Of a DNA stretch of 64,000 nt, positions 10,335 to 32,185 are shown piece by piece. This DNA is from Halopelagius longus (GTDB lineage Archaea; Halobacteriota; Halobacteria; Halobacteriales; Haloferacaceae). Position 1 is the first letter of the stretch. Each line of letters opens with the position of its first letter. The position numbers were made by a program, and so were the translations under genes. The notes under the pieces are model-generated. The model searched no databases. It was not told where the DNA came from and saw nothing but the letters and a program-made list of their open reading frames with translations. The DNA lies in NCBI RefSeq assembly GCF_900100875.1, contig NZ_FNKQ01000006.1:62001-126000 (forward strand). Direction: 5' to 3'.

Positions 10335-10352
10335 TTGTTATACTCTACATAC
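10335..10352 (-). promoter_or_regulatory. TAACAA-type promoter element upstream of the GT2 gene
   Basis: Read on the minus strand: GTATG, 7 nt, TAACAA. The element ends 81 nt before the GT2 start at 10253. It is one of nine copies of the bipartite element described in the findings. Confidence 0.5.
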
Positions 10353-10446
10353 AACTCGCGTGCGCGAGTCCCGCGTACCGTCCAACGGCTAACACGGCGT
10401 TAACGGCGTGCGAAGACGGTGTTCCGCGTCGAGAAGGCGCGAGCGG

Positions 10447-11463
10447 TCAGGCGCTTCCCTCCGAGACGTCGACGTACAGTCTGAGGGTCCGGTAGGCGTC
10501 TTCGGCGGTCGGGTCGGCCGGAGCGTCGCCGCGGTACAGCAGGTACGTCAGGCGGACGTCCTCACCGCTCGCCGCCGGCGTCACCGAGTGGTTGAGGTAC
10601 GCCGTCTCTCCGCTCTCGACGCTCGCGTTCAGGCGCCGCAACTCCTCGCTCGCGACCACCTCGGTGTCGTTTCCGCTTCCGTTGGTCCGGACTCGCTGTT
10701 GGAGGACGACGACGGTGTACTCCTGCGACTGCCCTTCGTGGTTCGCCACCGCCGCGGTCAACTGCGTCGGTTCGCCGACGGTGAGGTCGCGCGGGTAGTC
10801 GTTCGCGACGAGTTCGCCGGACTCGTTCTCCGAGAGGACGTAGAACTCGGTGAACGAGTCGCCCTGCGGGGACGGCGGCGCGGCGAGGGCGTACGCCGTC
10901 GTGGCGAGTGCGAGAAAGAGGCTCGCCGCCAAGACGACGTTCAGGGCAGTCCCGACGGTTGAGTCGCCGCGGAACGACCACCCGCCCGCGACGGCCGAGG
11001 GGACGGCGGGGGTAAAGCGCTCCCGCCGGGGGACCGACGACCGGCGCGCGACGGCGGCTACCGCGAACGCCAACGTGAGCGCCGTCACCGCGACGACCAT
11101 CGGGACGCGCCGGACGCCGAACGGGGTGAAGTTCACCGCCAGCGCCGTCGCCGAGACGAGTATCACGCTGGCGAGGACCGAGAGCACGACTCTCGCCGGC
11201 CCGTCGAGTCCCCGCGCCAACCGCGGAATCACCTCTTCGCCGTTCGCCTCCCGAACCGCGGCCCGCCTGACGTAGAGTGCGGAGACGAAGGCGTACCCCG
11301 GTAGGAAGACGAGGAGCGGTAACACGAAGACGACCTGAATCGGAGACCCCGAGAAAAAGGGGACGAAGACCATCGCGGCGGCCAGTAGCGTCGCCAGTAC
11401 GACGACGACCAAGTCCCACGGACGACCCGCGCGCGACGCCTGCGGCGTTCGCTTCTCTGCCAT
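10447..11463 (-). CDS. DUF1616 domain membrane protein
   Basis: A 338-residue membrane protein of the DUF1616 family. Paired N-terminal helices (VVVVLATLLAAAMVFVPFF and FVLPLLVFLPGYAFVSALYV, the second with the family-typical LPGYAFVSAL) are followed by two more helices, a further helix near residue 175, and an extracellular beta-rich domain ending YRGDAPADPTAEDAYRTLRL. DUF1616 proteins occur next to archaeal surface-glycan genes, but their biochemical role is unknown. The start at 11463 is chosen because it lies 26 nt after a TAACAA promoter element. An in-frame ATG at 11505 falls inside that element. A paralogue is at 56042. Confidence 0.82.
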   Translation of the reverse strand: MAEKRTPQASRAGRPWDLVVVVLATLLAAAMVFVPFFSGSPIQVVFVLPLLVFLPGYAFVSALYVRRAAVREANGEEVIPRLARGLDGPARVVLSVLASVILVSATALAVNFTPFGVRRVPMVVAVTALTLAFAVAAVARRSSVPRRERFTPAVPSAVAGGWSFRGDSTVGTALNVVLAASLFLALATTAYALAAPPSPQGDSFTEFYVLSENESGELVANDYPRDLTVGEPTQLTAAVANHEGQSQEYTVVVLQQRVRTNGSGNDTEVVASEELRRLNASVESGETAYLNHSVTPAASGEDVRLTYLLYRGDAPADPTAEDAYRTLRLYVDVSEGSA

Positions 11464-11489
11464 ACAGTCGCGTGATTCGGGAGGAGGCT

Positions 11490-11507
11490 TTGTTATACGA
11501 CGCATAG
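11490..11507 (-). promoter_or_regulatory. TAACAA-type promoter element of the DUF1616 gene
   Basis: Read on the minus strand: CTATG, 7 nt, TAACAA. It ends 26 nt before the ATG at 11463, the spacing of a leaderless haloarchaeal promoter. This fixes the start of the DUF1616 protein. Confidence 0.6.
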
Positions 11508-11564
11508 CGCCCGACGCCGGGCTTATTGGCGTCCGAGAGCGGGGGTCAGTGCGTCATCACCCCA

Positions 11565-13499
11565 CTACCCCACTACGATCGAACACATCTGCACGTCGCC
11601 GTTGTCGTACAGCATGTGCTGGTCCGGCGGACAGATCTGTCGCGACGAGAAGTCGCGTACCACGACGGAGTCTTCCTCGCCGGTCGCGTACATCGACGCG
11701 CCGTAGGACTGGTACTCCCTGTAGACGGTGACGCCCTGCGCGACGGGTTCACCCCGGTCGTTCAACTCTATCGGCACCGCCAAGTGCCCCCCGGCGCGCG
11801 TTATCATCGCTCGGTAGGGGTGGTCGGTGTAGAGCGGTGCGCTCGGCGACGGGTTCGTCGCCCGAATGGTGTTTATCGCCGCCAGTTCGGACTCCGTGTT
11901 CGAGTACCGCGGGTTGTAGTTATCGAACACCGGGTCGTCTATCGTCGCCTTGTCCGCGACGAGCATCGCGCCCGGGAACACCAGCGCGAACACCACGACT
12001 GCGGCGACGATGCCCCTCGAGGGGAGGTTGCGCGCCAGCGCGTACAGTCCGATGGTCCCGATGACGACCATCGGGACGTACATGAACGCTATCCAGCGAC
12101 CGGGGAGGAACGTCCGGATGCCGAACACGGGCAGGATGTACGCGAAGACCATCATCCCGACGGTGGCGGCGATGAGCGTCACGCCGGACTCGCGCAGGCG
12201 ACTGCGGTTGAGGACGACCAGCGAGCCGAACACCGTGAGGAAAAAGAGGAGGAAGAAGCCGAGTTCGTTGATGTAGGGGATGTACGGCGCCAGCGGACCC
12301 TGCGCCCCGGCCGCCGCGGCCGAACTGCTCCCGCCGGCGAGGTTGAGAAAGCCCGCGGAGCGAGCGAGCGTCACCTGAACGAGGACGAGCATCCGCGTGA
12401 CGAACGACGTTCCGCTTATCGGCGTCAGCATCCAGTCGACGACGAGGACGACGGTGTAGACGCCGACGACGCCGAGGAGTTTCTTCGGGTCGGTCGCGCG
12501 AACGCTCGACCACCCCGTCCGCGGAATCACGTCGTACGCGAACAGGAGCGTCGCCGCCGCCGCCGACAGGAGGAGCACGAGCGTCACGAACGCCGACACC
12601 TGGTGGGTGAGGATGACGCCGATGCCGAAGAACAACACCAGCCCGTAGTCGCGCGCCGTCGCGTCGAGGTGGAAGATGCGGACCAACGCGTACACGACGC
12701 CGAGGAACAGCGCCAGACCGAGGCTGGTCGGGATGAGGTGCAGTCCCCACCGAACGACGTGGTCGCCGACGGCGAACAGGCCCACCGCGAACACCGCCCA
12801 CCGGGGCGTGACGAAGAACCGCGAGATGCTGTAGACGAGGACGAAGAAGACGGACATGACCGTGCCGACGGTGAGGAACAGGGCCTGTCGCATCGAGACG
12901 CCGAGGAACTCGGTGGCGACGACGACGAGGAGGTGGTACAACGGGGCGGCGACGTACTTCACGTCGGAGATGGCAGACAGCGACCCCGCGCGGAGAATCG
13001 AGGCGGCGTACTCGCCGATGTGCGTCCAACTGTCGATGCCGATGAACCCCGGCGTGGTGTACAGGCCGACGAACCGGACGACGACGGCCAGCGCCGTTAT
13101 CTCCGCGAGCAACAGCCACGGCCTGAACTCGGCTTCGTCGGTGAACAGCGCCTGACAGAGGATGAGCGAGGCGACGACGCCGCTGGAAACGAGGAACAGG
13201 GGCGAGCGCGTCCCCGCCTGAATCGCGAGGAGGAGCAAGCCCGAGATACCGACCGCGACCGCCGCGACGGAGAGTTTCGTGAACGCGACGCCGAGGCGCG
13301 GCAGTTCCGTCTCTCGCCTGTCGTACCACGTGACGAACAGGTAGAGCAGACACGCCACGCCGAGAAGGACCGGAATCGTCGTGATGTAAATCTGCGAGGA
13401 GTAGAAGCGCAGGAAGAACAACAGGAAGGCGACTATCAGCCCGACCGCCGCCGCGAGAACGTCGAGTTGGCGGCTCAACAGGTCGTGGGTGTGCTTCAT
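11565..13499 (-). CDS. Large polytopic membrane protein, GT-C-like, surface-glycan associated
   Basis: A 644-residue protein with roughly a dozen or more transmembrane helices and a soluble C-terminal domain of about 110 residues. After the first hydrophobic block it carries GIDSWTHIGEY (Asp156, His160) and then PLYHLLVVVATEFLGV. GT-C glycosyltransferases put a catalytic acidic residue in the first extracellular loop, so DSWTH is a plausible active site. The protein at 40650 has the same two motifs in the same order. It could transfer or polymerise sugars from dolichyl-linked donors outside the cell. The start codon overlaps the GT4 stop (ATGA), so the two are co-translated. Confidence 0.7.
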   Translation of the reverse strand: MKHTHDLLSRQLDVLAAAVGLIVAFLLFFLRFYSSQIYITTIPVLLGVACLLYLFVTWYDRRETELPRLGVAFTKLSVAAVAVGISGLLLLAIQAGTRSPLFLVSSGVVASLILCQALFTDEAEFRPWLLLAEITALAVVVRFVGLYTTPGFIGIDSWTHIGEYAASILRAGSLSAISDVKYVAAPLYHLLVVVATEFLGVSMRQALFLTVGTVMSVFFVLVYSISRFFVTPRWAVFAVGLFAVGDHVVRWGLHLIPTSLGLALFLGVVYALVRIFHLDATARDYGLVLFFGIGVILTHQVSAFVTLVLLLSAAAATLLFAYDVIPRTGWSSVRATDPKKLLGVVGVYTVVLVVDWMLTPISGTSFVTRMLVLVQVTLARSAGFLNLAGGSSSAAAAGAQGPLAPYIPYINELGFFLLFFLTVFGSLVVLNRSRLRESGVTLIAATVGMMVFAYILPVFGIRTFLPGRWIAFMYVPMVVIGTIGLYALARNLPSRGIVAAVVVFALVFPGAMLVADKATIDDPVFDNYNPRYSNTESELAAINTIRATNPSPSAPLYTDHPYRAMITRAGGHLAVPIELNDRGEPVAQGVTVYREYQSYGASMYATGEEDSVVVRDFSSRQICPPDQHMLYDNGDVQMCSIVVG

Positions 13500-14437
13500 G
13501 CGCCCACCTCCGTTCTCGGGGCTCCGAGGACGCTCTCGTACACCGCGATGATGTTCTCTCCCATCCGTTCGAGGCTGTACTCCCGCACGTGCTCGCGCCC
13601 GTCGAACGCGTCGCCGTCGGTCACTGCGTCTGCGACGCCGCGGGCCAACTCTTCGTCGTCGTCGCTGACGACGGCGCCCGGAATATCGGCGGCGTACTCG
13701 GCGATGTCGCCCACGTCCGTCGTCACGACGGGGCGGTTACAGGCGAGTGCCTCCCGGACGGAGTTCGGCGACCCCTCCCACTTCGAGGTGAGAAGGAGGG
13801 CGTCGGCGGCGTTCACGTACGTCGGCATCCGTTCGTGCGGGACGCCCGAAATCGTCTGGAGTTCGATATCCTCGCCGAGTCGTCTCTCGGCGCGTTCGAC
13901 GACGCGTTTCGCCCGGGGGTAGTCCTTCGCGTCGCGCGCCGTGTCGTACGGGAACAGCACGTGGTTCTCGTCGCGCGTCCACCCGACTTCCTCCCGCGCC
14001 GGTCCCTTCGGCGCGGGCGAGAATAGGTCCATGTCGATGCCGTGCGGGACGACGGTGCACTCGACGCCGAGTTCCTCGCGCATCTCCTCGGACATCACGA
14101 TGACGGCGTCGGCCAACTGCGCGCACCACTCGCTGAGAGCGCCGTACTGCCCCATCACGTCCGACCCCCAAAGCGAGAGGACGACCGGACGGGTCGGTTG
14201 CGCGAGGGCGGCGGGGGCGGTCAGCCCGTAGTTCGCGTGTACGACGTCGTAGTCGCCGTTCCACGCCTCTCGCAGGGTGTCCCGGTAGAACGAGGCGTAC
14301 TGCCGGAGCGACCGGGTGCCCTCCGGCGGGCGCGGGACGGTCACCACGTCGCAGACGACGCCCTCGTCCTCCAACACGTCCACCTGCTGTTCGAAGAACG
14401 GTCTCCGCGTCGTGACGAGTTGCAGCGTTCGTATCAT
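13496..14437 (-). CDS. Glycosyltransferase family 4 (GT-B fold)
   Basis: A 313-residue GT4 glycosyltransferase. The N-terminal domain is short. The C-terminal donor-binding domain shows VLFPYDTARDAKDYPRAKRV, then the family pattern LLTSKWEGSPNSVREALACN with the donor-binding Glu, and VVTTDVGDIAEYAADIPGAVV. It should transfer a sugar from a nucleotide donor to a lipid-linked glycan on the cytoplasmic side. Its ATG overlaps the stop of a 28-codon leader ORF (ATGA), and its own stop overlaps the start of the GT-C-like gene. The promoter is a TAACAA element at 14601. Confidence 0.85.
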   Translation of the reverse strand: MIRTLQLVTTRRPFFEQQVDVLEDEGVVCDVVTVPRPPEGTRSLRQYASFYRDTLREAWNGDYDVVHANYGLTAPAALAQPTRPVVLSLWGSDVMGQYGALSEWCAQLADAVIVMSEEMREELGVECTVVPHGIDMDLFSPAPKGPAREEVGWTRDENHVLFPYDTARDAKDYPRAKRVVERAERRLGEDIELQTISGVPHERMPTYVNAADALLLTSKWEGSPNSVREALACNRPVVTTDVGDIAEYAADIPGAVVSDDDEELARGVADAVTDGDAFDGREHVREYSLERMGENIIAVYESVLGAPRTEVGA

Positions 14438-14520
14438 CTGTCGAATGCCCGCGAACGCGGCGTCTCTTCCGCAGCGTCGTGCTCTCTGGACGGACGGCGG
14501 CGGTGACGAACCGCGGACAT
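14434..14520 (-). CDS. Candidate leader ORF 2 (28 residues, Arg-rich) before the GT4 gene
   Basis: The ORF opens MSAVRHRRRPSREHD and ends RSRAFDR. Its ATG overlaps the stop of leader ORF 1 (TGATG), and its TGA overlaps the GT4 start (ATGA), so three reading frames are chained. The basic, Ser/Arg-rich composition is unlike normal haloarchaeal proteins. That could mean a regulatory peptide, or simply translation of non-coding DNA. Confidence 0.3.
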   Translation of the reverse strand: MSAVRHRRRPSREHDAAEETPRSRAFDR

Positions 14521-14573
14521 CACGTTCTCACCTGCCGTTCGGGGCGGTGAGCGGCGGAGACTTCTCTAAACAT
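14520..14573 (-). CDS. Candidate leader ORF 1 (17 residues) before the GT4 gene
   Basis: The ORF reads MFREVSAAHRPERQVRT. Its ATG lies 27 nt after the TAACAA element, the same spacing seen for the main start codons at 11463, 18881 and 21272, so it is well placed for leaderless translation. It ends TGATG on leader ORF 2. Confidence 0.35.
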   Translation of the reverse strand: MFREVSAAHRPERQVRT

Positions 14574-14600
14574 AACCGAAGATAGCGGTTTCCGGAGGTT

Positions 14601-14618
14601 TTGTTAATAGCGGGCTAC
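14601..14618 (-). promoter_or_regulatory. TAACAA-type promoter element of the GT4/GT-C operon
   Basis: Read on the minus strand: GTAGC, 7 nt, TAACAA. It lies 27 nt before the ATG of leader ORF 1 and 163 nt before the GT4 start. Confidence 0.5.
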
Positions 14619-14692
14619 ACCGTCTCCCCCGCGCTAACGGGCGTATAATAGTCCTTCTGCCGGGAAAGTCGGTGAGAACGATTGGTTCACGT

Positions 14693-15409
14693 TCACTCCG
14701 GCGGAATCTCCCACCGGGCGTCCGACCCGAGGGCCCACAGCGCTCGATTGACCGCGCCGCGAACGAGCACCGTCTTCCACGGCGTCAGGGAGTAGTAACT
14801 GCCCGAGGCGTTCTCGACGCCCTCGTAGCCGTCTTCGACCAAGAGCAGGGCCTCCCGAAGGAGCGTCGCCGTCGTCTCCGCGGACCGCCAGAGGATGTCC
14901 TTCGGCGTGTCGAACAGCCCGATTTTGAACCGGTCGCGACAGAGGATTCGGCCGTCGTCGAACTCCTCGGTGAGGAAGTGGACGGACGCGCCGCCCCACC
15001 GTTTGCCGTTGGCCCACTGGACCCTGTGCATCGCGGGCCCGCGGTAGTCCGGCAGGTACGACCCGTGGCAGTTCAGCGCCGCCGTCTCGGGCATCTCGAT
15101 CACGTCGCCCGGAATCAACTTCGTCCACCCGCAGGAGACCAGATACGCGAACGACTCCTCGTCCGTCACCGTCTCGACGGCGGCGGCGGGCGACCCCGGG
15201 TCCTCGGCGACGGCGTAGCGGACGCCTCGCCGCCGGAGCGAATCGACGAGTCGCCCCTCGGAGTCGTCCACGACCACCCGCGGGTCGTACCGCTCTTTAA
15301 ACGACGCACTCGAGAGGAGACTCTGTAACGTCACCGTCGCCTTCACCGCGTCCGCGGGCATCAGGAGGACGAGCGTTCGGCCGTCGGACTCCCCCTCAGA
15401 ACGGGTCAT
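14693..15409 (-). CDS. Formyltransferase-domain protein (sugar N-formyltransferase-like)
   Basis: A 238-residue protein with the formyltransferase fold used by methionyl-tRNA and sugar-amine formyltransferases. The catalytic Asn-His-Asp set is visible: Asn113 and His115 in NCHGSYLPDYRG, and Asp151 or Asp152 in TEEFDDGRIL. It is shorter than Met-tRNA formyltransferase (about 310 residues) and lacks that enzyme's C-terminal domain. Archaea do not formylate initiator tRNA, so a sugar amine or related amine is the likely acceptor, with 10-formyl-tetrahydrofolate or a folate substitute as donor. It is the last gene of a deacetylase, DUF354, ATP-grasp, formyltransferase operon, and overlaps the ATP-grasp gene by 14 nt. 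Confidence 0.8.
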   Translation of the reverse strand: MTRSEGESDGRTLVLLMPADAVKATVTLQSLLSSASFKERYDPRVVVDDSEGRLVDSLRRRGVRYAVAEDPGSPAAAVETVTDEESFAYLVSCGWTKLIPGDVIEMPETAALNCHGSYLPDYRGPAMHRVQWANGKRWGGASVHFLTEEFDDGRILCRDRFKIGLFDTPKDILWRSAETTATLLREALLLVEDGYEGVENASGSYYSLTPWKTVLVRGAVNRALWALGSDARWEIPPE

Positions 15410-16652
15410 CGCCGCCCCTCCAGAGGTTCAGCGCCCACCCCATCGACGTCGCCAGTCCGCCGGGTGCGACCCACGCGCGCAGGTCCCTCGGGTCGATATC
15501 GACGCGCGCGGGCGGCCACGCCAACGACGCCAGCGACCGGGGAAGCGACTCCTCCTCGTGTTTCAGCGAGAAGTACACCTCCCGGAGGGGGAACACCATC
15601 TCGCCCGTCTCCGACGGCGACCCCTCGAACGACTCCCGGGGAATGTCGAGACTGCTCGCGACGAGGGTGCTCGCGAAGCGATAGCCGTACCGACTCGCGA
15701 GGGCGTAGGAGGCCCAGAACTTGGGGTTTATCTCCATGAGCACCCACTCGCCGTTCGCCGCGCGCTTGTACTCGACCAACGCCACGCCGTTCCAATCGAG
15801 GGCTTCGAGGAGCGCCTTCGATTTGGCGGCGAGTTCCTCGTCCCGCAGAATCCGCACTCTCGTTCCGGTACCGCCCTCGCGGGGGATGGAGCGAACCTCG
15901 TCCTGTCCGAATTCGAGTTCCGGCGTCCCGTCGTCGAACAGGAGACCTATCGCGTACGTGTGACCGTCGCCTTCCACGTACTCTTGGACGATGATGTCGC
16001 CGCCCTCCTCGCGGTGGCGCAACTCCTCGTAGGCCTCCCAGAGGTCGTCCTCGCTCTCGACTTTCGAGACGATGTTCCGGCCGGCCTCCTTCTCGGCTTT
16101 CAGGAAGACGGGGTACGGCAGTTCGCTCGCGTCCAACTGCGGGTCGGCGTCCGGGCCGGTCGGCAGTCGGCCGTACTCCTCGGGCGTCCGGATGCCGACG
16201 CTCTCGGCGACGGCGGCGGTGTCGCCCTTGTCGAAGGCCGTCTCCAGAGCCTCCGAAGACGGAAGGCGGAACGCCACGCCGTCGGGAATCTCGTCTCGAA
16301 TCTCGTCTAACACCTCGACGGTGAGGTGGCCGACGGGCAGGACGACGTCGGGGTGGAACCGCTTTATGGCGCGGAGCACCGACGCGGCGTGCTTCGCTCT
16401 GTCCTCCTCGGCGGGCGGGACGACTACTCCCCGATCGCAGTACCGCGACTGCACGATGGGGTTCGTCTCCTCCTCGCCGACGCCGACGACTCTCGCGTCC
16501 AAGTCGCGGGAGAGTTCGGCGGCTATCTGCAGGGCGTACACGTGGTGTCTGCCGAGAATCATCACCGTCGGCGGCGCGTCGCGCTTCCGCGGTTCGTTCG
16601 CTTCGTTCGGCGGCGCGGCCGTCTCCTCGGCGGGTGCGGTAGCGTCGCTCAT
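15396..16652 (-). CDS. ATP-grasp carboxylate-amine ligase-like protein
   Basis: A 418-residue ATP-grasp enzyme. The N-terminal domain begins after a disordered Ala/Pro/Glu stretch with VMILGRHHVYALQIAAELSRD. The ATP-grasp domain has YPVFLKAEKEAGRNIVSKV, IIVQEYVEGDGHTYAIGLL and the metal-binding LMEINPKFWASYALAS near residue 315. ATP-grasp enzymes join a carboxylate to an amine through an acyl phosphate. Next to a deacetylase, which frees an amine, and a formyltransferase, it may attach an amino acid or other acid to an amino sugar. The start at 16652 overlaps the DUF354 stop (ATGA). The substrate is unknown. Confidence 0.8.
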   Translation of the reverse strand: MSDATAPAEETAAPPNEANEPRKRDAPPTVMILGRHHVYALQIAAELSRDLDARVVGVGEEETNPIVQSRYCDRGVVVPPAEEDRAKHAASVLRAIKRFHPDVVLPVGHLTVEVLDEIRDEIPDGVAFRLPSSEALETAFDKGDTAAVAESVGIRTPEEYGRLPTGPDADPQLDASELPYPVFLKAEKEAGRNIVSKVESEDDLWEAYEELRHREEGGDIIVQEYVEGDGHTYAIGLLFDDGTPELEFGQDEVRSIPREGGTGTRVRILRDEELAAKSKALLEALDWNGVALVEYKRAANGEWVLMEINPKFWASYALASRYGYRFASTLVASSLDIPRESFEGSPSETGEMVFPLREVYFSLKHEEESLPRSLASLAWPPARVDIDPRDLRAWVAPGGLATSMGWALNLWRGGDDPF

Positions 16653-17707: not shown

Positions 17708-17708
17708 C

Positions 17709-18497
17709 TCATCTCACCAAGTTGAGCACGCGCTTGCCGGCGTTCATCGTGAAGTCCTTCGCGTTCTCGACGACCATCTCGGTGGAGTCCTTCGCCCAGC
17801 GGTTCGGGTGCGTGAGGAGACAGAGTCGGGGTATCTCCCGGTTTTCGAGGAGGCCGATGAGTTCGCTCGTCTCCCCGACCTGCCGTTGCTTTCCGTCCTC
17901 GCCGACGGTGTGGTCCTTTATCTTCAACGCGCCGTCCTCCCACGTCCGGCCGGTGTCGGAGAAGTAGATGACGTCGGCGAAGTCCATCGAGAGGTACGCC
18001 TCCCCGAGGAGGCCGTACTCCTCGAACTGCCCTTCGGGGGCGGATGCCCACATGTCGCGGTTATCGTACGACGTGAGCGGATTGCCGTGCATGCACGCCG
18101 TCCGAACCTCCGCGAGTTCGCGGAGGCGTTCGAGTTCGCTCCGGAAGCTATCGTGGGCCGCCGCCACGTCGCCCTCCGCCCGGTCCATGTCCTCGTAGTG
18201 GTAGCCGATTTCGTGGCCGAGCGCGTCGATTTGGCGTATCAAATCCGGGCGGAACACCTTCTCTATCGTCCGGAAGTAGTAGGTGCTCGGCACGTCGAGT
18301 CGGGCCTCCAGACGCGCCATCGCGAGCGCGTTCTCCGGCTTCCGGTCCACGTCGTGGCGGTGGACGACGAACCGTTCCGGCAACTCGTCCGCTCGCTTCC
18401 GCGTGAGGTACTGGCGGACGGTGAGGTGGTCGTACCCGGCGTCGAGACCCGCCCGCAGGAGTTCCTCGTACCTCTCGAACGTGAACTCCCCCATCAT
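17709..18497 (-). CDS. Polysaccharide deacetylase-like protein (NodB fold)
   Basis: A 262-residue protein with the divalent-metal site of the NodB/CE4 fold: RHDVD near residue 46 supplies the Asp pair and GHEIGYHYEDMD supplies the His. There is no signal peptide, so it works in the cytoplasm, probably on a nucleotide- or lipid-linked sugar rather than on finished polymer. It is the first gene of the operon with DUF354, ATP-grasp and formyltransferase genes. It starts with two ATG codons in a row, and the first overlaps the stop of a 59-residue leader ORF. The acetyl substrate is inferred from fold only. Confidence 0.75.
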   Translation of the reverse strand: MMGEFTFERYEELLRAGLDAGYDHLTVRQYLTRKRADELPERFVVHRHDVDRKPENALAMARLEARLDVPSTYYFRTIEKVFRPDLIRQIDALGHEIGYHYEDMDRAEGDVAAAHDSFRSELERLRELAEVRTACMHGNPLTSYDNRDMWASAPEGQFEEYGLLGEAYLSMDFADVIYFSDTGRTWEDGALKIKDHTVGEDGKQRQVGETSELIGLLENREIPRLCLLTHPNRWAKDSTEMVVENAKDFTMNAGKRVLNLVR

Positions 18498-18673
18498 CGG
18501 TCGTTCACCGCTCGATTCGCTCTCTCCGACCGTTCTCGCCGCCGTCGGCGAACGCTCCCGCTCCCCGCGCGGTCGTTTCGACCGCTCGCCCCGGTACGGC
18601 GACTCCCTCGCCCGGTTGCGAGCGGTCCGTCCGCGGGAGGAGACTCTCGCCCGACGTCCGTTCGTTGAATCAT
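18494..18673 (-). CDS. Candidate 59-residue Arg/Ser-rich leader ORF before the deacetylase operon
   Basis: It starts MIQRTDVGRESPP, six bases after a GGAG that can act as a ribosome site, and ends RSERANRAVNDR. Its TGA overlaps the deacetylase ATG (ATGA). The basic, low-complexity composition is not typical of haloarchaeal proteins, so it may be a non-functional frame, a regulatory leader or a small basic peptide. Confidence 0.3.
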   Translation of the reverse strand: MIQRTDVGRESPPADGPLATGRGSRRTGASGRNDRAGSGSVRRRRRERSERANRAVNDR

Positions 18674-18731
18674 GTGTCTCTCCTGTTGCGCGTTAGAGCG
18701 CGCTCGTAGACTCGGTGTCGGCCGGCGTCCT

Positions 18732-19795: not shown

Positions 19796-20887
19796 CTACT
19801 CGCCCGCGGGCGTGTGCACCGACGGATCGGCGACCTGAACCGTCTCGATACGGTCCAGCGGATACTCGATCGCCGGGCGCGGCGGGTCGCGGAATCCCCA
19901 GATGATTCCGCACAGCGTCAGCATCTGTCCGAGGATGAGACTCACGGCCTCGGTGAACCCCTTCTCCGAGGCGAGCGCGTAGAACCCCGCCGCCGTCATT
20001 ACGAGCCACCCGACGAGGAGTGGCGGCGAGAGGAGCGAGAACGCGCCGAGCGCACCCCACGCCCCGACGAGCAGTTTGTTCCGCATCCGACGGAGGTGGC
20101 GCACCAACCGCCGCGGCGAGTCTGTCGACTTTCGAATCGCCTGTCCCGCCCCCGTGACGTACCCGTTCCGAAGCCTCCGGAGGGGTTCCGTCGGCCCGGA
20201 CGCGACCGGATGTTCCGCGACGACGACGGGGAGGCGACAGAGGCGGTACCCCGACTCGCCGAGTCGGAATCCGAGGTCGATGTCTTCGAGCGACCGGAGG
20301 AACGGGTCGAACCCGCCGACGGTTCGGAGCTTCTGCGCGTCGTACAGGGCCACGCCCCGAACCGCGCCGACGGTCACTACCTCGTCGTGGTCGCGGTTCT
20401 CGTTGAGGTGGCCGTCCACGGCGGCCACGTCGGGGCGCTCCCGGAGAAGGTCGCACGCCCGCGGTAACCAGCCGTCGGTGACGTCCATGTCGCCGTCGAC
20501 GAACAGGACGAACTCACCGTCCGCGGCGTGCGTTCCGACGTACCTCCCCGCCGAGGGCGTCGAGAGGTCGTCCGACGGTATCTGTAACACCGTGATTGGG
20601 TACTCGCGCGCGATATCGACGGTACCGTCCGACGAGTTCGAGTCCACGAGGATGACCTCGAACGGCATCCCCTCGCACAGCTCGAACACCGAGTCGAGAC
20701 ACCGGGAGATGCGGTCCGCCTCGTTGTACGTCACGACGACGACGGAGACGGTGGGGTTCGCCGCGTCGTCGTCGCCAGGTTCGATCCGGCGGGCTGCCGA
20801 GGTTCCCTCGGCAACGTCTTCGGACTGCGACGCGCCGCTTCCCGCGACCGGTTCCGAGCCGACGTTTCCGACGTTGCTATCGCTCAT
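19796..20887 (-). CDS. Glycosyltransferase family 2, membrane-anchored
   Basis: A 363-residue GT2 enzyme. After about 48 acidic, disordered residues the GT-A domain opens VSVVVVTYNEADRISRCLDSV. It has VDSNSSDGT, the metal-binding VDGDMDVTDGWL, and DPFLRSLEDIDLGFRLGESG (the ED acceptor motif). Hydrophobic segments around AWGALGAFSLLSPPLLVGWLV and the next helix anchor the C-terminus. It should add a sugar to a lipid-linked glycan at the cytoplasmic face. A TAACAA element lies 85 nt upstream. Confidence 0.85.
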   Translation of the reverse strand: MSDSNVGNVGSEPVAGSGASQSEDVAEGTSAARRIEPGDDDAANPTVSVVVVTYNEADRISRCLDSVFELCEGMPFEVILVDSNSSDGTVDIAREYPITVLQIPSDDLSTPSAGRYVGTHAADGEFVLFVDGDMDVTDGWLPRACDLLRERPDVAAVDGHLNENRDHDEVVTVGAVRGVALYDAQKLRTVGGFDPFLRSLEDIDLGFRLGESGYRLCRLPVVVAEHPVASGPTEPLRRLRNGYVTGAGQAIRKSTDSPRRLVRHLRRMRNKLLVGAWGALGAFSLLSPPLLVGWLVMTAAGFYALASEKGFTEAVSLILGQMLTLCGIIWGFRDPPRPAIEYPLDRIETVQVADPSVHTPAGE

Positions 20888-22912: not shown

Positions 22913-22919
22913 CAGAACA

Positions 22920-24032: not shown

Positions 24033-24034
24033 CA

Positions 24035-25045: not shown

Positions 25046-25456
25046 CCCCGCCTCGCACCGAGGCCGCGCGCCGGGTTCGACCCGCCCCTTCATCCCCGTT
25101 TTCGGTTCTAAGCCACCCTTTAGTGTCAGACGAATACAGTGTATTGGCAAATATTGCCGGTCGAAAATACGCCGCACGCGGCCTCGAAGTAATGTCATTA
25201 TGAATGTAGGAAATGGTAATTAATCCGGTAGGTGTGTTCAATTTATCAGATATGTAGTTTCGACACAACTCGCATCGAGGCGAGCGTGACGGGTCGCCAC
25301 AGTCCTGCGATAACTCCCTGTTAAGGGTTCGCCGATGGGGGTTCCGAGCCGCAAATTCGTACATTGGAATTTTAATGTTTTGGCGAAAATTTATTTGAAT
25401 CACAGTCTATTTTTAGTTACTATACTAGGTTCTGAAGTATTCATGGATGGGAAAAT
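25046..25456. other. AT-rich intergenic region
   Basis: About 410 nt between the FemAB operon and the beta-helix gene, clearly richer in A+T than its surroundings. It contains several TATA-like stretches (for example near 25390-25430). I see no gene or RNA in it. Confidence 0.4.
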
Positions 25457-25464
25457 TTATAACC
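25457..25464 (+). promoter_or_regulatory. TATA box (TTTATAAC) of the beta-helix gene at 25489
   Basis: The box ends 24 nt before the ATG, so the transcript is probably leaderless. It shares TATAAC with the glycan element but lacks the final AA. Confidence 0.5.
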
Positions 25465-25488
25465 TAATGCTCATCCTAAACGGGTGTA

Positions 25489-27186
25489 ATGAGGCGTGAA
25501 ACCGACGCGGCGCGAAGCACGGACGATACAGAGGGAGGCTCTCTCATGGGCCGTCGACCCTATCTCAAACTCGCGGGTGCGGCGGTCGGGGCAATTGCCC
25601 TCGGGAGTTCGAGTGCAAGTGCGGCAGATACGTCCGTCGTCGTCGTTGATGGACGGGGGGGAACCGACAAAACTCACTATGTCATCGAAGTGAGTGATTC
25701 GATAAAGAAGATTAACACTTCGGTCGCAGACACGCTGTCCGATTCGGTTTCGGACACGAAGGTCGAAGGGAGTGTCGCCGACGGCGTCGACGCTTTCGAG
25801 TACACCGGCCACATCACCGAGTTCGACTTCGACGGCTCGGCGAAGGTGACCACGAAACCGACGCTGAAGGACGTTTCGTCGGACCTCGTGCCGGAGGAGA
25901 CGAGCAAGAACAAGATCGAGGTCGTGAGCGACGGGTCGATAACGTACGAGTTCACCACCTCCGGGAAGATAACCAAGCTCTTCGACAACGGGAAGAAGAG
26001 CGCCGAGAAGGAGAACGACTCGGTCACGGAGAACGACGACGGGACGTGGTCGGCGTCCGGATTCACCGGGAACGGCTACGGCGACGGCTTCGAGTTCGAG
26101 GGCGAACTGAAGGCGTTCAGCCCGAACTCGGACGACTTCAGGCTCCTCCTCAACGGGAAGGAGGTGTCGCCCGAGGACTTCGGCGACGTCTCGAACGACT
26201 CCGGCTCCGACTCCGACTCCAGCAGTAGTTCCAGCGGTAGCAACGAGGCCCACATCGGCGGCGGCGAGGGCTACTCGAACGTGGTCCCCGAGTCCGAGGC
26301 GACGGAAGTCGTCTCGAGCCTCTCGGACCTCAAGAGCGCGCTCAACGGCGCGTCCAGCGGCGACGTGGTCTACGTCGCGGGCGACGCCGAAATCAACATG
26401 CGCGAGTCGAAGCTCACCGTCCCGAGCGGCGTCACGCTGGCCTCGAACCGGGGTATCGGCGGCGCGAAGGGCGCCCGACTCTACACCAAGGGCCACCCGT
26501 GGGGTATGCTCACGCTCCAGTCGAACTCCCGCGTGACCGGGCTCCGCATCGCCGGTCCCCGGTGGGACTGGGTCGACGAGACGGAGACCACGGAACTGGG
26601 ACTCGACGCGGCCGGCTCCGGCGTCGAAGTCGACAACATCGAAGGGTACGGGTGGGGCTACGCCGTCGTCCGAACCGCGGACGACACGCACGTCCACCAC
26701 TGTCACCTCCACCACTGCTCCCGCATGGGCCACGGGTACGGGATCGCAACCGAGGGTAGCGACTACCCCATCATCGAGTACAACAAGTTCGAGCACAACC
26801 GCCACAGCGTCCAAGGGAACGGCGGCGGCTACGAAATCCGGTACAACGTCGTCGACGTGCCGGCTATCAGCCACGTGTTCGACCAGCACCGCCCGGGCGG
26901 GAAGACGATGAAGATTCACCACAACACGGTTCGCGTGGTCAAGGACGAAGGCGGGCGCAGCGGTTCGGGCAACGCGCCGGCCGTCGCCATCCGGGGCGTC
27001 CCGGACGACGTCGCGGACATCCACGACAACTGGTTCTTCAACGACAAGAAACCGCGCAGCAGTCCCAGCGGATGGACCGACGAGGCCATCATCCAAGTCC
27101 ACACGGACAGCTGGCAGAACGTCGAGTTCAACAACAACCACTACGGTTCCGACGAACCGGCGTCGGACATCGGCCACCCGCGGTAA
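25489..27186 (+). CDS. Tat-exported beta-helix protein (pectate-lyase-like fold), two domains
   Basis: A 565-residue exported protein. A twin-arginine signal (GRRPYLKLAGAAVGAIALGS) starts near residue 21; there is an alternative ATG at residue 20. Residues of about 50-235 form a beta-rich domain, then a Ser/Asp linker (SDSDSSSSSSGS) leads into a right-handed beta-helix from about 260, opening LSDLKSALNGASSGDVVYVAG as in pectate-lyase-like proteins. Rungs with His/Asn stacks (HVHHCHLHHCSRMGHG, KIHHNTVRVV, IHDNWFFND) follow. Fold kin cleave or bind acidic polysaccharide, which fits a cluster that makes uronic sugars. No catalytic residue can be assigned. Confidence 0.8.
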   Translation: MRRETDAARSTDDTEGGSLMGRRPYLKLAGAAVGAIALGSSSASAADTSVVVVDGRGGTDKTHYVIEVSDSIKKINTSVADTLSDSVSDTKVEGSVADGVDAFEYTGHITEFDFDGSAKVTTKPTLKDVSSDLVPEETSKNKIEVVSDGSITYEFTTSGKITKLFDNGKKSAEKENDSVTENDDGTWSASGFTGNGYGDGFEFEGELKAFSPNSDDFRLLLNGKEVSPEDFGDVSNDSGSDSDSSSSSSGSNEAHIGGGEGYSNVVPESEATEVVSSLSDLKSALNGASSGDVVYVAGDAEINMRESKLTVPSGVTLASNRGIGGAKGARLYTKGHPWGMLTLQSNSRVTGLRIAGPRWDWVDETETTELGLDAAGSGVEVDNIEGYGWGYAVVRTADDTHVHHCHLHHCSRMGHGYGIATEGSDYPIIEYNKFEHNRHSVQGNGGGYEIRYNVVDVPAISHVFDQHRPGGKTMKIHHNTVRVVKDEGGRSGSGNAPAVAIRGVPDDVADIHDNWFFNDKKPRSSPSGWTDEAIIQVHTDSWQNVEFNNNHYGSDEPASDIGHPR

Positions 27187-27192
27187 CGCCGC

Positions 27193-28374
27193 TTACGGGC
27201 GTTCGACCGCGCTCGGACCGACGTTCGACCGACCGACGGAGGAGAGTTCGGACTCGGTAGCCGAGACGAGGCAGTCAACGGTTCCGTCGGGCATCTGGTG
27301 GTGAACGGGGAAGACGAGCGTCGAGGTGCGGAGGACGTTCGTCGCCGAGTACGCCTCCAGAACGCGTCTTCCTTCTTCGAGCGGCCAAATGTACCGAGTG
27401 ACGGGTAACCCGCGCTTCCGAAGCGACTGATACAGCTTCTCTCGACGCTCGTGTCCGCCCGGGAGTCGTACCGCGACGCCGAAGGGGCAGGCCCCCTCGT
27501 GCGCTTCGGGCGTCAGGACGGTCAGTTCCTCTATCTCCTCCAGACGTGTCCTGAGCCGTTCGTACAGGTCGCGCCTCGTCCGTTGCACGTCCGGCGGCGA
27601 GGTGTGGGTGAAGCCGACGTTCGATATCCACCCCGGGAGCTTCGGCGGCCACGCCTCCGCCGGCGGGTCGCATATCTTGCCGTAGTAGTACTCGAAGGTG
27701 TGGTACGCGCCGTTTCCGTTGAGCGACCTGACGAACGGCCGGGCGTCGACGCTGTCGATGGCCGTCGTCGCCGCCAGCGTCAGCAGGTCGGACATCTCCG
27801 ACACCTGATCTGTCGGCGGCACGGGCGCGGCGTCGCGCGTCACGAGGAGCCCCCCGTTCGGCGCCGGAAGCGTCTTGTGGAGGCTGTAGAGCGCCGCGTC
27901 GCCGGTGGACCCCAACAGCCGTCCGTCGGCGTCCCGACTGAACGCGGCCCGCGAGCAGTCCTCGATGACGGCGGCACCTACTTCGCGGGAGACGTCCACG
28001 AGTCGCCGGAAGTTCGGGTCGGCGAAGCCGAGGTAGTGGGCGAACAGGACGACGTCCGGTCGGACCTCCCGGATTCTGTCGGCCACCTCGTCGAACGGGT
28101 ACGACAACGACTCCGAAATCGGGTAGTACTCCACGTCCAACTCCGCCTTCCGAAACGGCCAGACCGCGCTCTCCGGGACGTACGCCGGGACGAGAGCCGT
28201 CCCCTCGCTCAGGTCGAGATTCTCCAGAAAGGCGTACGCGCCCGTCCGCCCGTACGCGTACAGTTCTTTTCGACCCGCCGGGACCCACTCGTCGTCGGCG
28301 AACCACGACGGAACCCCCGGGTCCCGGCCGTCGAGCCAACGGAGACGAACAGTCGGTTCGGTAGATACGAACAT
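27193..28374 (-). CDS. DegT/DnrJ/EryC1/StrS-type aminotransferase
   Basis: A 393-residue PLP enzyme of the sugar aminotransferase family but divergent. The lysine is Lys167 in LYSLHKTLPAPNGG and the cofactor Asp139 is in AAVIEDCSRAAF. ALVPAYVPESAVWPFRKAEL corresponds to the usual substrate-proximal segment. Unlike the copy at 3861 it has no other pathway gene beside it, so its keto-sugar is unknown; it may instead make an amino sugar for the flippase-linked glycan. The start at 28374 avoids an unlikely N-terminal extension from 28437. A 12-residue leader ORF ends 4 nt upstream. Confidence 0.8.
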   Translation of the reverse strand: MFVSTEPTVRLRWLDGRDPGVPSWFADDEWVPAGRKELYAYGRTGAYAFLENLDLSEGTALVPAYVPESAVWPFRKAELDVEYYPISESLSYPFDEVADRIREVRPDVVLFAHYLGFADPNFRRLVDVSREVGAAVIEDCSRAAFSRDADGRLLGSTGDAALYSLHKTLPAPNGGLLVTRDAAPVPPTDQVSEMSDLLTLAATTAIDSVDARPFVRSLNGNGAYHTFEYYYGKICDPPAEAWPPKLPGWISNVGFTHTSPPDVQRTRRDLYERLRTRLEEIEELTVLTPEAHEGACPFGVAVRLPGGHERREKLYQSLRKRGLPVTRYIWPLEEGRRVLEAYSATNVLRTSTLVFPVHHQMPDGTVDCLVSATESELSSVGRSNVGPSAVERP

Positions 28375-28378
28375 TATG

Positions 28379-28417
28379 TCAATTTTCGAGGAGTTCGGAT
28401 CGACGCGCGCCGAACAT
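28379..28417 (-). CDS. Candidate 12-residue leader ORF before the DegT aminotransferase
   Basis: The ORF reads MFGARRSELLEN. Its TGA is followed after 4 nt by the aminotransferase ATG, which is close enough for reinitiation. No promoter element of the TAACAA type is seen upstream. Confidence 0.2.
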   Translation of the reverse strand: MFGARRSELLEN

Positions 28418-28500
28418 TCCTCGGAAGTGACTGCCACTTACGGCGACAGATACATGGTTTTTCTCGTGATAACGGCTTTACTAGTCATTTAACTTACCTG

Positions 28501-30018
28501 TTACTCCTGGCGCCACTGTTGGACGCTCTGAGACCAGTTGTCGATGGGCGACGGGAAGTACGAGAGGACGTTCAGCACCTCCTCGACGCTGACCGCGCCG
28601 ACGGCGAGTGACGCGACGGCGTAGACGACGAATCCGACGACGGGGACGACGGCGAGCGCCGCCATATCGCTCGCGAGCACCCAGTCGGCGGCGTAGATGA
28701 CGGGCGCGGCGATAGCGCCCGCCGCGAGGATGCGCGGCGCGCGGAAGTCCTTCAGGGGGTAGTAGCCGAGGTGTCGGGCGCACCCGACGTGCATGAGGAG
28801 CATCGACCCGTACCCGATGCTCGTCGCCGTCGCCGCGCCTATCATCCCGAACCGGGGGATGAGCAGGTAGTTCAACACGAGGTTCAGTGCCGCCGACCCG
28901 GAGGTTGCGACGATGATGGGCTTCAGGTCGCCGTTCCCCTGACTGACGGCGTAAATCGGCCGCGCGAGGGCGAACCCGACGACGCCCGGAAGCAGGAACA
29001 GGAGCGGTCGAATCATCGGCACGAAGTCGGCACCGTAGTAGTAGGGTACGAACCGGTCCGCGAGGACGGCGACGCCGATGGACATCACGACGGCCAAAAG
29101 CGCCGTGTACCGGATGATACGGGTCGTCAGAGAGCTGATTCGGGCGTACTCTTCGTTCGACCAGAGCGTCGATGCGGAGTGGAGCAACAGGGCCTGCAAC
29201 GCGATGGGGACGAACCAGATGTACTCGGCGATGGAGAGGGCGGCGCGGTAGTACCCCGTCTCCTCGCTCCCCAGGAACATCCGCATCATGATGATGTCCG
29301 TGTGGTACAGCGACATCACCAACAGGACGAGCGCGATGTTCAGGACGTTGAACGTCAGGAGTTCGTTCCGCGACACCGACTCGGCGGTTCGCGAGACGAC
29401 TTCCCGGATCGACACCCGGTTGAGGATTATCCACAGTCCGATGACGGCGACGACGGCGTCGCCGAGGATGTTGCCGAGGAGGAACCCCTCGACGCCGAAC
29501 CCGAAGAAGTACCCCAGTCCGAGTCCGGTGCCGAAGAGCAGTATCTTGCCCACGACGCGGAGCGGTTCGGAGTACTCCTCCAAGCCGAACCCCATGAGCG
29601 TCCGTCGCGCGAACGCGCGGTACTGCGCGGCGACGACCAACGCGGCGAGGAGGTAGAAGTACAGGTCGAAGCGCGCGCCGAGTTGCCGTTCGACGATGCC
29701 GAGTCGCGTGACGCCGACGACGCAGACGACGCCGAGGGCGGCCAGTCCGGTCGCGAGCTTCAGGTAGAACCCGACGACGTTCGACCGCCACTCCTCGAAA
29801 TCTCGCTCTTCGGCGGCGAACTTCTGGACCCCCTCGGTGACGCCCGAACTGAAGAATATCATCATCACGGAGAACACCGACAGCAGGAAGGCGTAGTCCC
29901 CGTACCCGTCGGGGCCGAGAACGCGGACGACGAAGGGGAGGGCGACGATGGAGATGACGGAGGTGAGCATCTTCCCGCTGAATATCGAGAGAAAGCCCTT
30001 GACGATGCTCCGACTCAC
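28501..30018 (-). CDS. Wzx-type oligosaccharide flippase (MATE/MVF-like)
   Basis: A 505-residue polytopic protein of the polysaccharide-flippase family. It opens SRSIVKGFLSIFSGKMLTSV and then VRVLGPDGYGDYAFLLSVFS, as haloarchaeal Wzx-like proteins do, and has about 12-14 helices. It should flip a dolichyl-linked glycan from the inner to the outer face. The GTG start at 30018 is chosen because homologues begin at this position and because it overlaps the stop of a leader ORF as GTGA. A TTG at 30195 is in frame but would add 59 Arg-rich residues and lies only 6 nt after the promoter element. Confidence 0.85.
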   Translation of the reverse strand: MSRSIVKGFLSIFSGKMLTSVISIVALPFVVRVLGPDGYGDYAFLLSVFSVMMIFFSSGVTEGVQKFAAEERDFEEWRSNVVGFYLKLATGLAALGVVCVVGVTRLGIVERQLGARFDLYFYLLAALVVAAQYRAFARRTLMGFGLEEYSEPLRVVGKILLFGTGLGLGYFFGFGVEGFLLGNILGDAVVAVIGLWIILNRVSIREVVSRTAESVSRNELLTFNVLNIALVLLVMSLYHTDIIMMRMFLGSEETGYYRAALSIAEYIWFVPIALQALLLHSASTLWSNEEYARISSLTTRIIRYTALLAVVMSIGVAVLADRFVPYYYGADFVPMIRPLLFLLPGVVGFALARPIYAVSQGNGDLKPIIVATSGSAALNLVLNYLLIPRFGMIGAATATSIGYGSMLLMHVGCARHLGYYPLKDFRAPRILAAGAIAAPVIYAADWVLASDMAALAVVPVVGFVVYAVASLAVGAVSVEEVLNVLSYFPSPIDNWSQSVQQWRQE

Positions 30019-30164
30019 GGCGTTGGCTCCCGACTCGTCTCCGAACGCTTCCTCGACGCGCGGTTCGCCGAACGGTCGGAGAAGCCCGGCCCGGAACGCG
30101 GACTCACCGACCGGTGTTTCGACCCCTCGAACCGCCGGACGGTGACTCGCACTCTGTCGCGCAT
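30015..30164 (-). CDS. Candidate 49-residue Arg/Ser-rich leader ORF before the flippase
   Basis: It starts MRDRVRVTVRRFEGSK 37 nt after the TAACAA element and contains SDRSANRASRKRSE. Its TGA overlaps the flippase GTG start (GTGA). It resembles the leader ORF at 18494 in composition and in the phrase RS-x-x-ANRA-like, but low complexity makes that weak evidence. Confidence 0.3.
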   Translation of the reverse strand: MRDRVRVTVRRFEGSKHRSVSPRSGPGFSDRSANRASRKRSETSREPTP

Positions 30165-30201
30165 GGAGGTAGTGAGTGTGACGTACCCCGCGCAAGGGCG
30201 A

Positions 30202-30219
30202 TTGTTATATCTCGTATAA
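30202..30219 (-). promoter_or_regulatory. TAACAA-type promoter element of the flippase gene
   Basis: Read on the minus strand: TTATA, 7 nt, TAACAA. It lies 37 nt before the leader ORF ATG and 183 nt before the flippase GTG. Confidence 0.5.
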
Positions 30220-30428
30220 TCGAATCAGCCGAAAACGGCGGCGAAGAGTCTCCTACTGGTTATGTTCTGAACGATGTGTAAGTCGCTTCGAGGCGGGTGT
30301 CCGCGTCCCGGACGTCGCCCTCTCCGCCGCGTCCGTCGCGTCGGTCGCTCATCCCGAACCGGCCGACGGCGAACGGGGACCTCCCGAACCGTCGGTCTCC
30401 GCCGAGGAGTCGCCGTCGCCGCGGCGAC
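30220..30428. other. Spacer between flippase promoter and RHH-like gene
   Basis: About 210 nt of mostly G+C-rich DNA downstream of the RHH-like gene. Open frames here are Arg-rich shadows without support. Nothing else seen. Confidence 0.3.
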
Positions 30429-30668
30429 TCAGAGGCGGTCGTCTTCGATGTTTCCGGGGTCGTCTGCGGTGTCGAACAGGTTGTTCTCGGCTCCCTCCAT
30501 GAAGTCGTCACCGGGGGGCGAGTCGTCGACGACGTCGACGTTGTAGGCGTCGATACCCATGCTTATCAGTTCCTCTACCGCTTGTTCCTCTGTCACGAAC
30601 TCCTCGTCGACGAGGTGTTCGAATTCGCTGAGCAGTTCGTCGGGGAGCGACACTTCGACAACGGGCAT
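30429..30668 (-). CDS. Small ribbon-helix-helix-like protein with acidic tail
   Basis: A 79-residue protein. The first 42 residues (VEVSLPDELLSEFEHLVDE, then TEEQAVEELISMGIDAY) have the strand-helix-helix pattern of CopG/RHH DNA-binding proteins. The rest is a very acidic tail. Haloarchaea have many such small proteins, some treated as transcription factors and some as uncharacterised families. It lies between the flippase and epimerase genes, transcribed away from the epimerase. Regulation of neighbouring genes is possible but not shown. Confidence 0.55.
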   Translation of the reverse strand: MPVVEVSLPDELLSEFEHLVDEEFVTEEQAVEELISMGIDAYNVDVVDDSPPGDDFMEGAENNLFDTADDPGNIEDDRL

Positions 30669-30959
30669 AAAAGGGGATTTGCACTCCTCCTACTTGAACT
30701 GCAGGATAGGACAGTCGAACTGACACCGACGAGTCCCGCGAGAGGGGCCGACGGAGGGGCGGAGGCCGACGGCCGCCCGGTCGCCCGGTAAACGCCGCCT
30801 TAAAAGCGAACGCGGTCGCCGTCCACGTCGTCCCGCGCCGGCGTCGTCCCGCGCGCGAGACGGGTCACCGAACGCCGTACGTCCGCGAGTTGGGGGTGCC
30901 TCGCAGTCCCGGCGGACGGCCCGAAGACGCAAGTGTCGCTGATTTGTCCGTCCGATACG

Positions 30960-31883
30960 ATGCTCGAATCGAAACTGGAGGGCGCGTCCGTTCTCGTCAC
31001 CGGCGGCGCGGGGTTCATCGGCGGCCACATCGCCGAGACGCTGGCGGACCGGGCCGACGTCGCCGTCCTCGACGACTTCTCGACCGGTACGGAGGGGGCG
31101 GTTCCGTCGTCGGTCGAGACGTTCGAAGCCGACGTCAGGGACGCCGACGCCGTCGAGGACGCCGTCGCGGGGCGCGACGTGGTGTTCCACGAGGCGGCCA
31201 TCGTCGACGTCGCCCAGTCCGTCGAGACGCCGCGTCCGTGTCACGACGTGAACGTGGACGGGACGCTGAACGTGTTGGAGGCGGCGCGCGAACACGACGC
31301 TCGAACGGTCGTCGCGTCGAGTGCGGCGATATACGGCGCGCCGACGAGTACGCCGATAGACGAGTCAGAACCGACCGACCCCGCGTCCCCGTACGGCATC
31401 GACAAGCTCGCGGTGGACTACTACACGCGCCGGTATCACGACCTGTACGGACTCGATACGGTCGCACTCCGGTACTTCAACGCCTACGGGCCCGGGCAGT
31501 CGGCGGGCGACTACTCGGGCGTCATCGACGTGTTCTTCGAACAGGCGCGCGCGGGCGAGGCGCTGACCGTCCACGGCGACGGCGAACAGACGCGCGACTT
31601 CGTCCACGTCGACGACATCGTGCAGGCGAACCTGCTGGCCGCGACGACGGACGACGTCGGCGAGGCGTACAACGTCGGCACCGGCACCTCCGTCACGATA
31701 ACCGAACTCGCCGAGGAGGTCAAAGCCACCGTCGGGTCCGACTCGTCCGTCGTCCACACCGACCCCCGCGACGGAGACATCCGGCGAAGTTGCGCCGACA
31801 TCGCACGGGCGAGGCGAAAACTCGGCTACGAACCGACCGTCTCGTTGGGCGACGGCCTCTCGACTCTCGCCGAGGACGAGTGA
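30960..31883 (+). CDS. NAD-dependent sugar epimerase/dehydratase (GalE-like SDR)
   Basis: A 307-residue extended short-chain dehydrogenase. It has the NAD motif VLVTGGAGFIGGHIAE (from residue 11), VVASSAAIYG (the Ser/Thr catalytic strand), SPYGIDKLAVDYYTRRY with the YxxxK pair, and LRYFNAYGPGQSAGDYSGVI. The set is typical of UDP-glucose 4-epimerase and UDP-glucuronate epimerases. The start at 30960 is chosen over an upstream in-frame codon because it begins the conserved domain. Product sugar not determinable. It stands alone, diverging from the RHH-like gene. Confidence 0.85.
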   Translation: MLESKLEGASVLVTGGAGFIGGHIAETLADRADVAVLDDFSTGTEGAVPSSVETFEADVRDADAVEDAVAGRDVVFHEAAIVDVAQSVETPRPCHDVNVDGTLNVLEAAREHDARTVVASSAAIYGAPTSTPIDESEPTDPASPYGIDKLAVDYYTRRYHDLYGLDTVALRYFNAYGPGQSAGDYSGVIDVFFEQARAGEALTVHGDGEQTRDFVHVDDIVQANLLAATTDDVGEAYNVGTGTSVTITELAEEVKATVGSDSSVVHTDPRDGDIRRSCADIARARRKLGYEPTVSLGDGLSTLAEDE

Positions 31884-32167
31884 GCGCCGCGCCCGCTCAA
31901 AAATCCAGTTTCGAGACTATCTCTTCCTCCCCGATACGTTTACTCCCGCGTTAATTGCGATTTTGGTGGGTTCCGTCCCCTCCTCGATGCGACACCCCAA
32001 TTCAGACACTATTCTGATAGATATATTAGGGTCTGAGTGACTTGACACGACACATGAACGATCTGCCGGGCAAACGGGGTGAAAACGTCGCCGAGAGTCG
32101 ATTGAGTAATGTACGGGTCCCGAGAATACATCTCTCAACCCACATTCATCTCTCGATATGTGACCTA
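31884..32167. other. AT-rich intergenic region before the HprK-like gene
   Basis: About 285 nt. It contains an AT-rich box near 32020-32029 (ATATATTAGG) that could be a second promoter. A 98-codon minus-strand frame here lacks recognisable features and is not called. No RNA gene seen. Confidence 0.35.
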
Positions 32168-32185
32168 TTTTGGGTAATATAACAA
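32168..32185 (+). promoter_or_regulatory. TAACAA-type promoter element of the HprK-like gene
   Basis: TTTTG, 7 nt, TAACAA (full TATAACAA). It ends 29 nt before the ATG of a 20-residue leader ORF and 88 nt before the HprK-like start. This copy keeps the core but not the upstream TA. Confidence 0.5.

Follow-up and report, generated by a model that had tools for sequence, protein, structure and literature searches.

A TATA-positioned element upstream of haloarchaeal surface-glycan genes whose spelling follows the type of a nearby DUF7344 gene

The stretch of DNA analysed here (the window) comprises 64,000 nucleotides of Halopelagius longus and corresponds to C6:62001-126000; contig C6 is 188 kb long, or 4.9% of the 3.87-Mb genome, and gene calls place its glycan genes in several blocks. 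A sequence-only reading of the window had described nine copies of a bipartite element, TA followed by TAACAA, each pointing toward a glycan gene. All nine were confirmed at the positions and strands claimed, as were the distances given from the core to three main ATGs and two leader-ORF ATGs (Table 1). In eight of the nine, TA precedes TAACAA by exactly 9 nt and TATAACAA by 7 nt; the exception is the site at 32180, where the upstream TA is absent and TATAACAA is present; at six of the nine sites TAACAA falls within TATAACAA. The window contains nine matches to the strict pattern TA-N9-TAACAA where 0.10 would be expected, and none of 100 shuffles gave more than one match. The earlier claim that the element is confined to the glycan region held for this strict form in eight of the nine matches, which are the sites already described, but not for the ninth, at 2569, nor for TAACAA alone, which occurs 16 times (4.5 expected). 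Since the 2569 match lacks the A before TAACAA and has a ferritin-like gene downstream, it is probably due to chance. Six of the TAACAA copies lie at 36-44 kb of the window and have no correctly placed upstream TA. The overlapping segment 38001-44000 has a GC content of about 0.50-0.52 compared with 0.65 around it, carries a glycosyltransferase gene, one for a large membrane protein and further genes likely to be for glycans, and looks like acquired DNA. An Rfam search returned no match, and an ARAGORN call of tRNA-Gly on the minus strand at 14909-15005, within the formyltransferase-like gene 14693-15409, is probably false.

Table 1. Elements, associated genes and candidate regulators (window coordinates unless prefixed C6)
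Feature	Position	Strand	Context
Element TATGTAGAGTATAACAA	10335..10351	-	Precedes GT2 glycosyltransferase gene 9297-10253; 81 nt to ATG
Element TATGCGTCGTATAACAA	11490..11506	-	26 nt before ATG 11463, DUF1616 gene 10447-11463
Element TAGCCCGCTATTAACAA	14601..14617	-	27 nt before 17-codon leader ORF (ATG 14573), then GT1/GT4 gene 13496-14437
Element TACCCGTTGTATAACAA	18732..18748	-	Precedes gene 17709-18497 (no Pfam match; deacetylase-like by inspection)
Element TACGCGCCCAATAACAA	18839..18855	+	25 nt before ATG 18881, polysaccharide deacetylase; 27 nt to ATG in G077 homologue
Element TATGAGATGGCTAACAA	20973..20989	-	Precedes GT2 gene 19796-20887; 85 nt to ATG, short ORF at 37 nt
Element TAGGAACGCTATAACAA	21228..21244	+	27 nt before ATG 21272, type I phosphodiesterase gene; 28 nt in G077 homologue
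Element TATACGAGATATAACAA	30202..30218	-	Precedes flippase gene 28501-29970
TATAACAA at 32178-32185, no TA at -17/-16	32169..32185	+	29 nt before 20-codon leader ORF (ATG 32215)
Gene, no Pfam match	32274-33416		Follows 20-codon leader ORF (ATG 32215)
Strict TA-N9-TAACAA without A at -7	2569..2585	-	Precedes ferritin-like TAT gene 1818-2543
New C6 site	C6:7542		Before GlmU-like enzyme (Pfam)
New C6 site	C6:14902		Before nucleotidyltransferase (Pfam)
New C6 site	C6:15976		Before phosphomannomutase-type enzyme (Pfam)
New C6 sites	C6:153631 and 155099		Before two deacetylase lipoproteins (Pfam)
New C6 site	C6:166817		Before GT2 (Pfam)
New C6 site	C6:176958		Before DUF354 (Pfam)
New C6 site	C6:183067		Before flippase (Pfam)
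202-aa DUF7344	C6:9144-9752
178-aa DUF7344 paralogue	C6:10106-10642
PadR protein	C6:10991-11269

We also examined the distribution of the element in the rest of the genome, using as controls 19 stretches of 20 kb (380 kb) from other contigs together with genome-wide pattern searches. Twelve of the 20 genomic copies of TATAACAA are on C6, as are 10 of the 13 matches to TA-N8-ATAAYAA (binomial about 2e-11 in each case). The genome total of the latter is hardly above the 11 obtained with a reversed control, and the signal is therefore the concentration on C6. As a control for spacing, N6 in place of N7 before TATAACAA gave no match in the genome. A weight matrix was built from the nine sites, as proposed with the original observation; scores of at least 12 occurred upstream of 16 of the 148 C6 genes and of only 1 of 321 control genes (Fisher 7e-8, or 5e-6 after removal of four of these 16 genes to allow for the sites from which the matrix was built). 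Further copies were found in the C6 glycan blocks beyond the window, mostly with an ATG 25-30 nt downstream, so the regulon exceeds the set first described (Table 1).

The suggestion of a glycan regulon was supported in this genome, and the element is conserved across haloarchaea. It recurs in glycan or exopolysaccharide (EPS) clusters throughout the order, on large secondary replicons of many species, among them Halobaculum, Haloferax mediterranei (pHME505), H. larsenii, H. lucentense, Haladaptatus, Halorientalis, Haloarcula, Haloterrigena, Halorussus, Salinigranum and plasmids of Haloprofundus, and TANNNGNNNNATAACAAW is present in 291 of 392 genomes of the order. Within f17, a family judged to contain Halorussus, 28 genomes hold 187 copies of TANNNGNNNNATAACAAW compared with 15 of the reversed control. 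In f17 and other families the element also stands before chromosomal genes not obviously concerned with glycans, and we therefore rejected a glycan-only role for the order as a whole. At five f17 loci (L197, L201, L203, L212 and L214) it stands before further conserved genes of the chromosome whose products are probably surface or secreted proteins, possibly a wider envelope regulon.

Across the order the element reads TAnnCGnnnTATAACAAWnCC, with TAACAA ending 26-28 nt before the ATG. Among 721 genes of glycan loci from this and related genomes, part of which were picked by the motif itself, this distance peaks at 26, 27 and 28 nt (12, 20 and 13 genes, respectively), compared with none of 321 control genes at 26-28 nt and two matches among them at any distance. 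Because some loci had been chosen by motif, the spacing test was repeated on independently chosen loci; homologues of the deacetylase gave four records with few sites, and sampling was hence based on the regulator described below and on GT2. Loci chosen by homology held 13 TAAYAA sites at 25-29 nt, against 1.3 expected per 5-nt bin, and at loci chosen by the regulator (DUF7344) only, 29 of 50 long-ORF starts lay 24-31 nt downstream. A logo of sites selected only for core and spacing has T at -17 (65%), A at -16 (87%), G at -12 (72%) and A at -7 (89%); the commonest bases from -12 to -8 are G, C, C, C and T rather than the CGAAA of a BRE, and the logo contains neither a second AT-rich box nor an ordinary TATA box beside the element. 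Ordinary TATA-like hexamers in control genes of H. longus end 24 nt before the ATG (10 of 20), which places the element about 3 nt further upstream; TAACAA at 26-28 nt thus differs from a TTTAWA-like TATA box at about 24 nt. These results support the proposal of a shared, non-consensus promoter element at a fixed 26-28 nt from leaderless-type starts.

The accompanying remark on leader ORFs was likewise supported. Where no long ORF begins at the predicted distance, short-ORF ATGs are enriched 25-34 nt downstream of the element, with 42 in two 5-nt bins compared with about 4 per bin elsewhere. These ORFs, of about 6-58 codons, have the main gene further down, as at 14573 and 32215 in the window, and may be leader peptides on leaderless transcripts. 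In three Halobaculum clusters (L115:11700-13300, L117:10700-11500 and L127:13150-14400) an ORF of 52-60 codons with a zinc-finger-like CPxC start begins 25 nt after a CTAACAA box that has no upstream TA.

Outside the window, at C6:9144-11269, a PadR gene and two DUF7344 genes lie in a row beside glmS- and glmU-like genes, an arrangement conserved in G001, G025 and G086. Both DUF7344 proteins have C-terminal hydrophobic segments. Two features of transmembrane one-component transcription regulators (TTRs; PMC10269533) are predicted for the 202-aa type: a DNA-binding domain (PF24035, DUF7344, E 1e-27) and transmembrane segments, with C-terminal 19-residue hydropathy peaks of 1.6-3.2 in 16 of 16 orthologues. 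As to a third, the binding and regulation of target promoters, the observations that bear on it are the co-segregation and the placement of sites described below. An AlphaFold2 model of a paralogue from locus L133 has the winged-helix order and two long C-terminal helices; its best matches are weak (E 0.05 or worse) and include winged helices of the MarR/PadR type, and a PDB sequence search with the regulator found no match. In the H. longus genome, 31 matches to DUF7344 score above the cut-off. An orthologue of the 202-aa type occurs in most glycan clusters found by homology, and no DUF7344 was found in some of the motif-bearing stretches fetched (18-40 kb).

The clusters are almost exclusively of one of two spellings, C-type (ATAACAA) or T-type (ATAATAA), even where two lie within one genome. 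In G010 and G117, both judged to be Haloprofundus, the cluster on the plasmid has C-type sites only (6 and 8, respectively), and that on the chromosome T-type sites only (4 in each). Two clusters of one cell therefore differ in spelling, which indicates that specificity goes with the cluster rather than with the general transcription factors. The DUF7344 proteins of T-type clusters fall in one subclade; in Haloferax mediterranei the T-type DUF7344 gene is at 440347-440949 of the pHME505 record. In C-type clusters, PadR and additional DUF7344 paralogues are present as well. We compared 68 regulators, from 59 loci fetched only by regulator homology and nine earlier clusters. Regulators with a Lys at a discriminating position (K-type) go with 29 clusters of C-type and 2 of T-type, and those with a Gln (Q-type) with 20 of T-type and 2 of C-type (Fisher 2e-10, for loci that are not independent); four loci thus mismatch their regulator type, and 15 had no strict site or were tied. 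Both types are found in several families and also within individual genomes; it is therefore the regulator, and not the taxon, that the spelling follows. However, K- and Q-type regulators split only once on the tree (support 100/100), and the covariation therefore amounts to one evolutionary switch; any other gene inherited along with the clusters would show the same co-segregation. Five residues discriminate the two types perfectly. Comparison with the modelled L133 paralogue puts one of them, K90/Q, at the beginning of the predicted recognition helix. Lys-G and Gln-A contacts are a textbook pairing preference, and they would fit the C-to-T change as read on the other strand. On f17 chromosomes, a conserved C-type site, TAAATGGTGAATAACAAA or a near copy of it, stands just upstream of a free-standing K-type DUF7344 gene, as seen by locus in six genomes and by matching coordinates in others. 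This position ties DUF7344 to the element and looks like autoregulation.

We consider the chances about even that the element is the operator and core promoter of a cluster-encoded, membrane-bound winged-helix regulator, which probably activates transcription. The element (TA at -17/-16, G at -12 and the core ATAACAAW) would serve as both operator and core-promoter element of surface-glycan and EPS clusters, and would be read by the DUF7344 protein of the same cluster, a winged-helix protein with predicted membrane helices (here the 202-aa protein). DUF7344 would cover about 17 bp, roughly from -43 to -27 before the start codon, and when bound would most likely recruit TBP/TFB to a poor TATA-like box, so that dispersed glycan units could be transcribed as leaderless messages from one membrane signal. 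That DUF7344 binds DNA, resides in the membrane, activates and responds to a signal is our inference. TBP does not select for a box with a fixed G-C pair. We argue that a major-groove reader, and not TBP, fixes the sequence of the element, because the box has a fixed C-G pair, no consensus TATA and a base that tracks the regulator.

Activation is preferred because the promoters are without strong core elements, although an element that overlaps the TATA position could as well be bound by a repressor. In repression by occlusion, which we regard as less likely, the linked DUF7344 would sit on a TATA variant and block TBP/TFB until a surface signal released it. The element is nearly in TATA register, binding over a core promoter commonly represses, and the element before the f17 DUF7344 genes would be simple negative feedback, but the C-type box keeps a G-C pair and lacks a consensus TATA, which would be odd in a promoter that is strong when free. 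Less probable still is that the PadR protein or the 178-aa DUF7344 reads the element and the 202-aa protein merely co-travels. Both genes adjoin that of the 202-aa protein in its own genus and in g25, and the 178-aa gene has a conserved element-like site upstream of it. However, PadR occurs in just 5 of 34 loci tested, and only one DUF7344 is present in the stretches fetched for T-type clusters. PadR is absent from the Haloferax and Halobaculum stretches and was rejected as the regulator for this reason. The first reading had proposed a particular TBP/TFB pair or an activator, and the activator, for which a linked DUF7344 is the candidate, is the better half: a special TBP/TFB pair using the element as an alternative core promoter is improbable despite the 8 TFB-like and 3 TBP-like genes of this genome, the near-TATA position and the copies upstream of varied genes on the main chromosomes of other families, since C6 has no TFB or TBP gene, two clusters in one genome have different but internally uniform spellings, and the type follows a cluster-linked protein.

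The proposed DUF7344 regulator resembles ArnR/ArnR1 of Sulfolobus acidocaldarius (PMC6396743) and the TTRs (PMC10269533), which are likewise one-component proteins with a DNA-binding domain and membrane helices that control surface structures. DUF7344 differs from them as a distinct Pfam family, whose name is absent from PMC10269533, with polysaccharide clusters as putative targets and a TATA-replacing element as candidate operator. The haloarchaeal core promoter consists of a BRE (CGAAA) and a TATA box (TTWT) (PMC4983044) and, like the element, lies at a fixed distance from leaderless-type starts; the element, in contrast, reads ATAAYAA, in which Y is a fixed C or T, stops about 27 nt before the ATG instead of 24, and has an extra TA about one helical turn upstream and no CGAAA. 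In Haloferax volcanii the Lrp/AsnC-like CsmR has a palindromic operator, TATCA(N4)TGATA, upstream of BRE/TATA (PMC13286277). Both are haloarchaeal regulon motifs near core promoter elements, but our element occupies the TATA position and has no inverted repeat by inspection, and neither the C-type nor the T-type logo reproduces the published palindrome. No separate TATA box is seen with the element, in which it differs from a further class of haloarchaeal sites. These are the upstream activating sequences of Bat and GvpE, where the activator site stands beside BRE/TATA, upstream of a separate TATA box. In the open-licence literature searched, DUF7344 was not named, the motif was not paired with haloarchaea, and no regulator was found assigned to haloarchaeal EPS or surface-glycan clusters.

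Since the spelling follows the type of the nearby DUF7344 gene, our results suggest an undescribed switch for building the outer polysaccharide of the cell. If this is correct, a function would be assigned to a domain of unknown function with 31 copies in one genome, the co-ordination of dispersed megaplasmid glycan genes would be explained, and a two-letter recognition rule could be tested in Haloferax mediterranei, which is genetically tractable and carries a T-type cluster. More tentatively, DUF7344 proteins may be order-wide haloarchaeal envelope regulators whose operator replaces the TATA box, with a regulator-operator pair for each cluster and a Lys or Gln in the recognition helix setting TAACAA or TAATAA. 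Were the Lys/Gln reading true, two polysaccharide programmes could be run separately in one cell and could be passed from species to species as self-regulated units.
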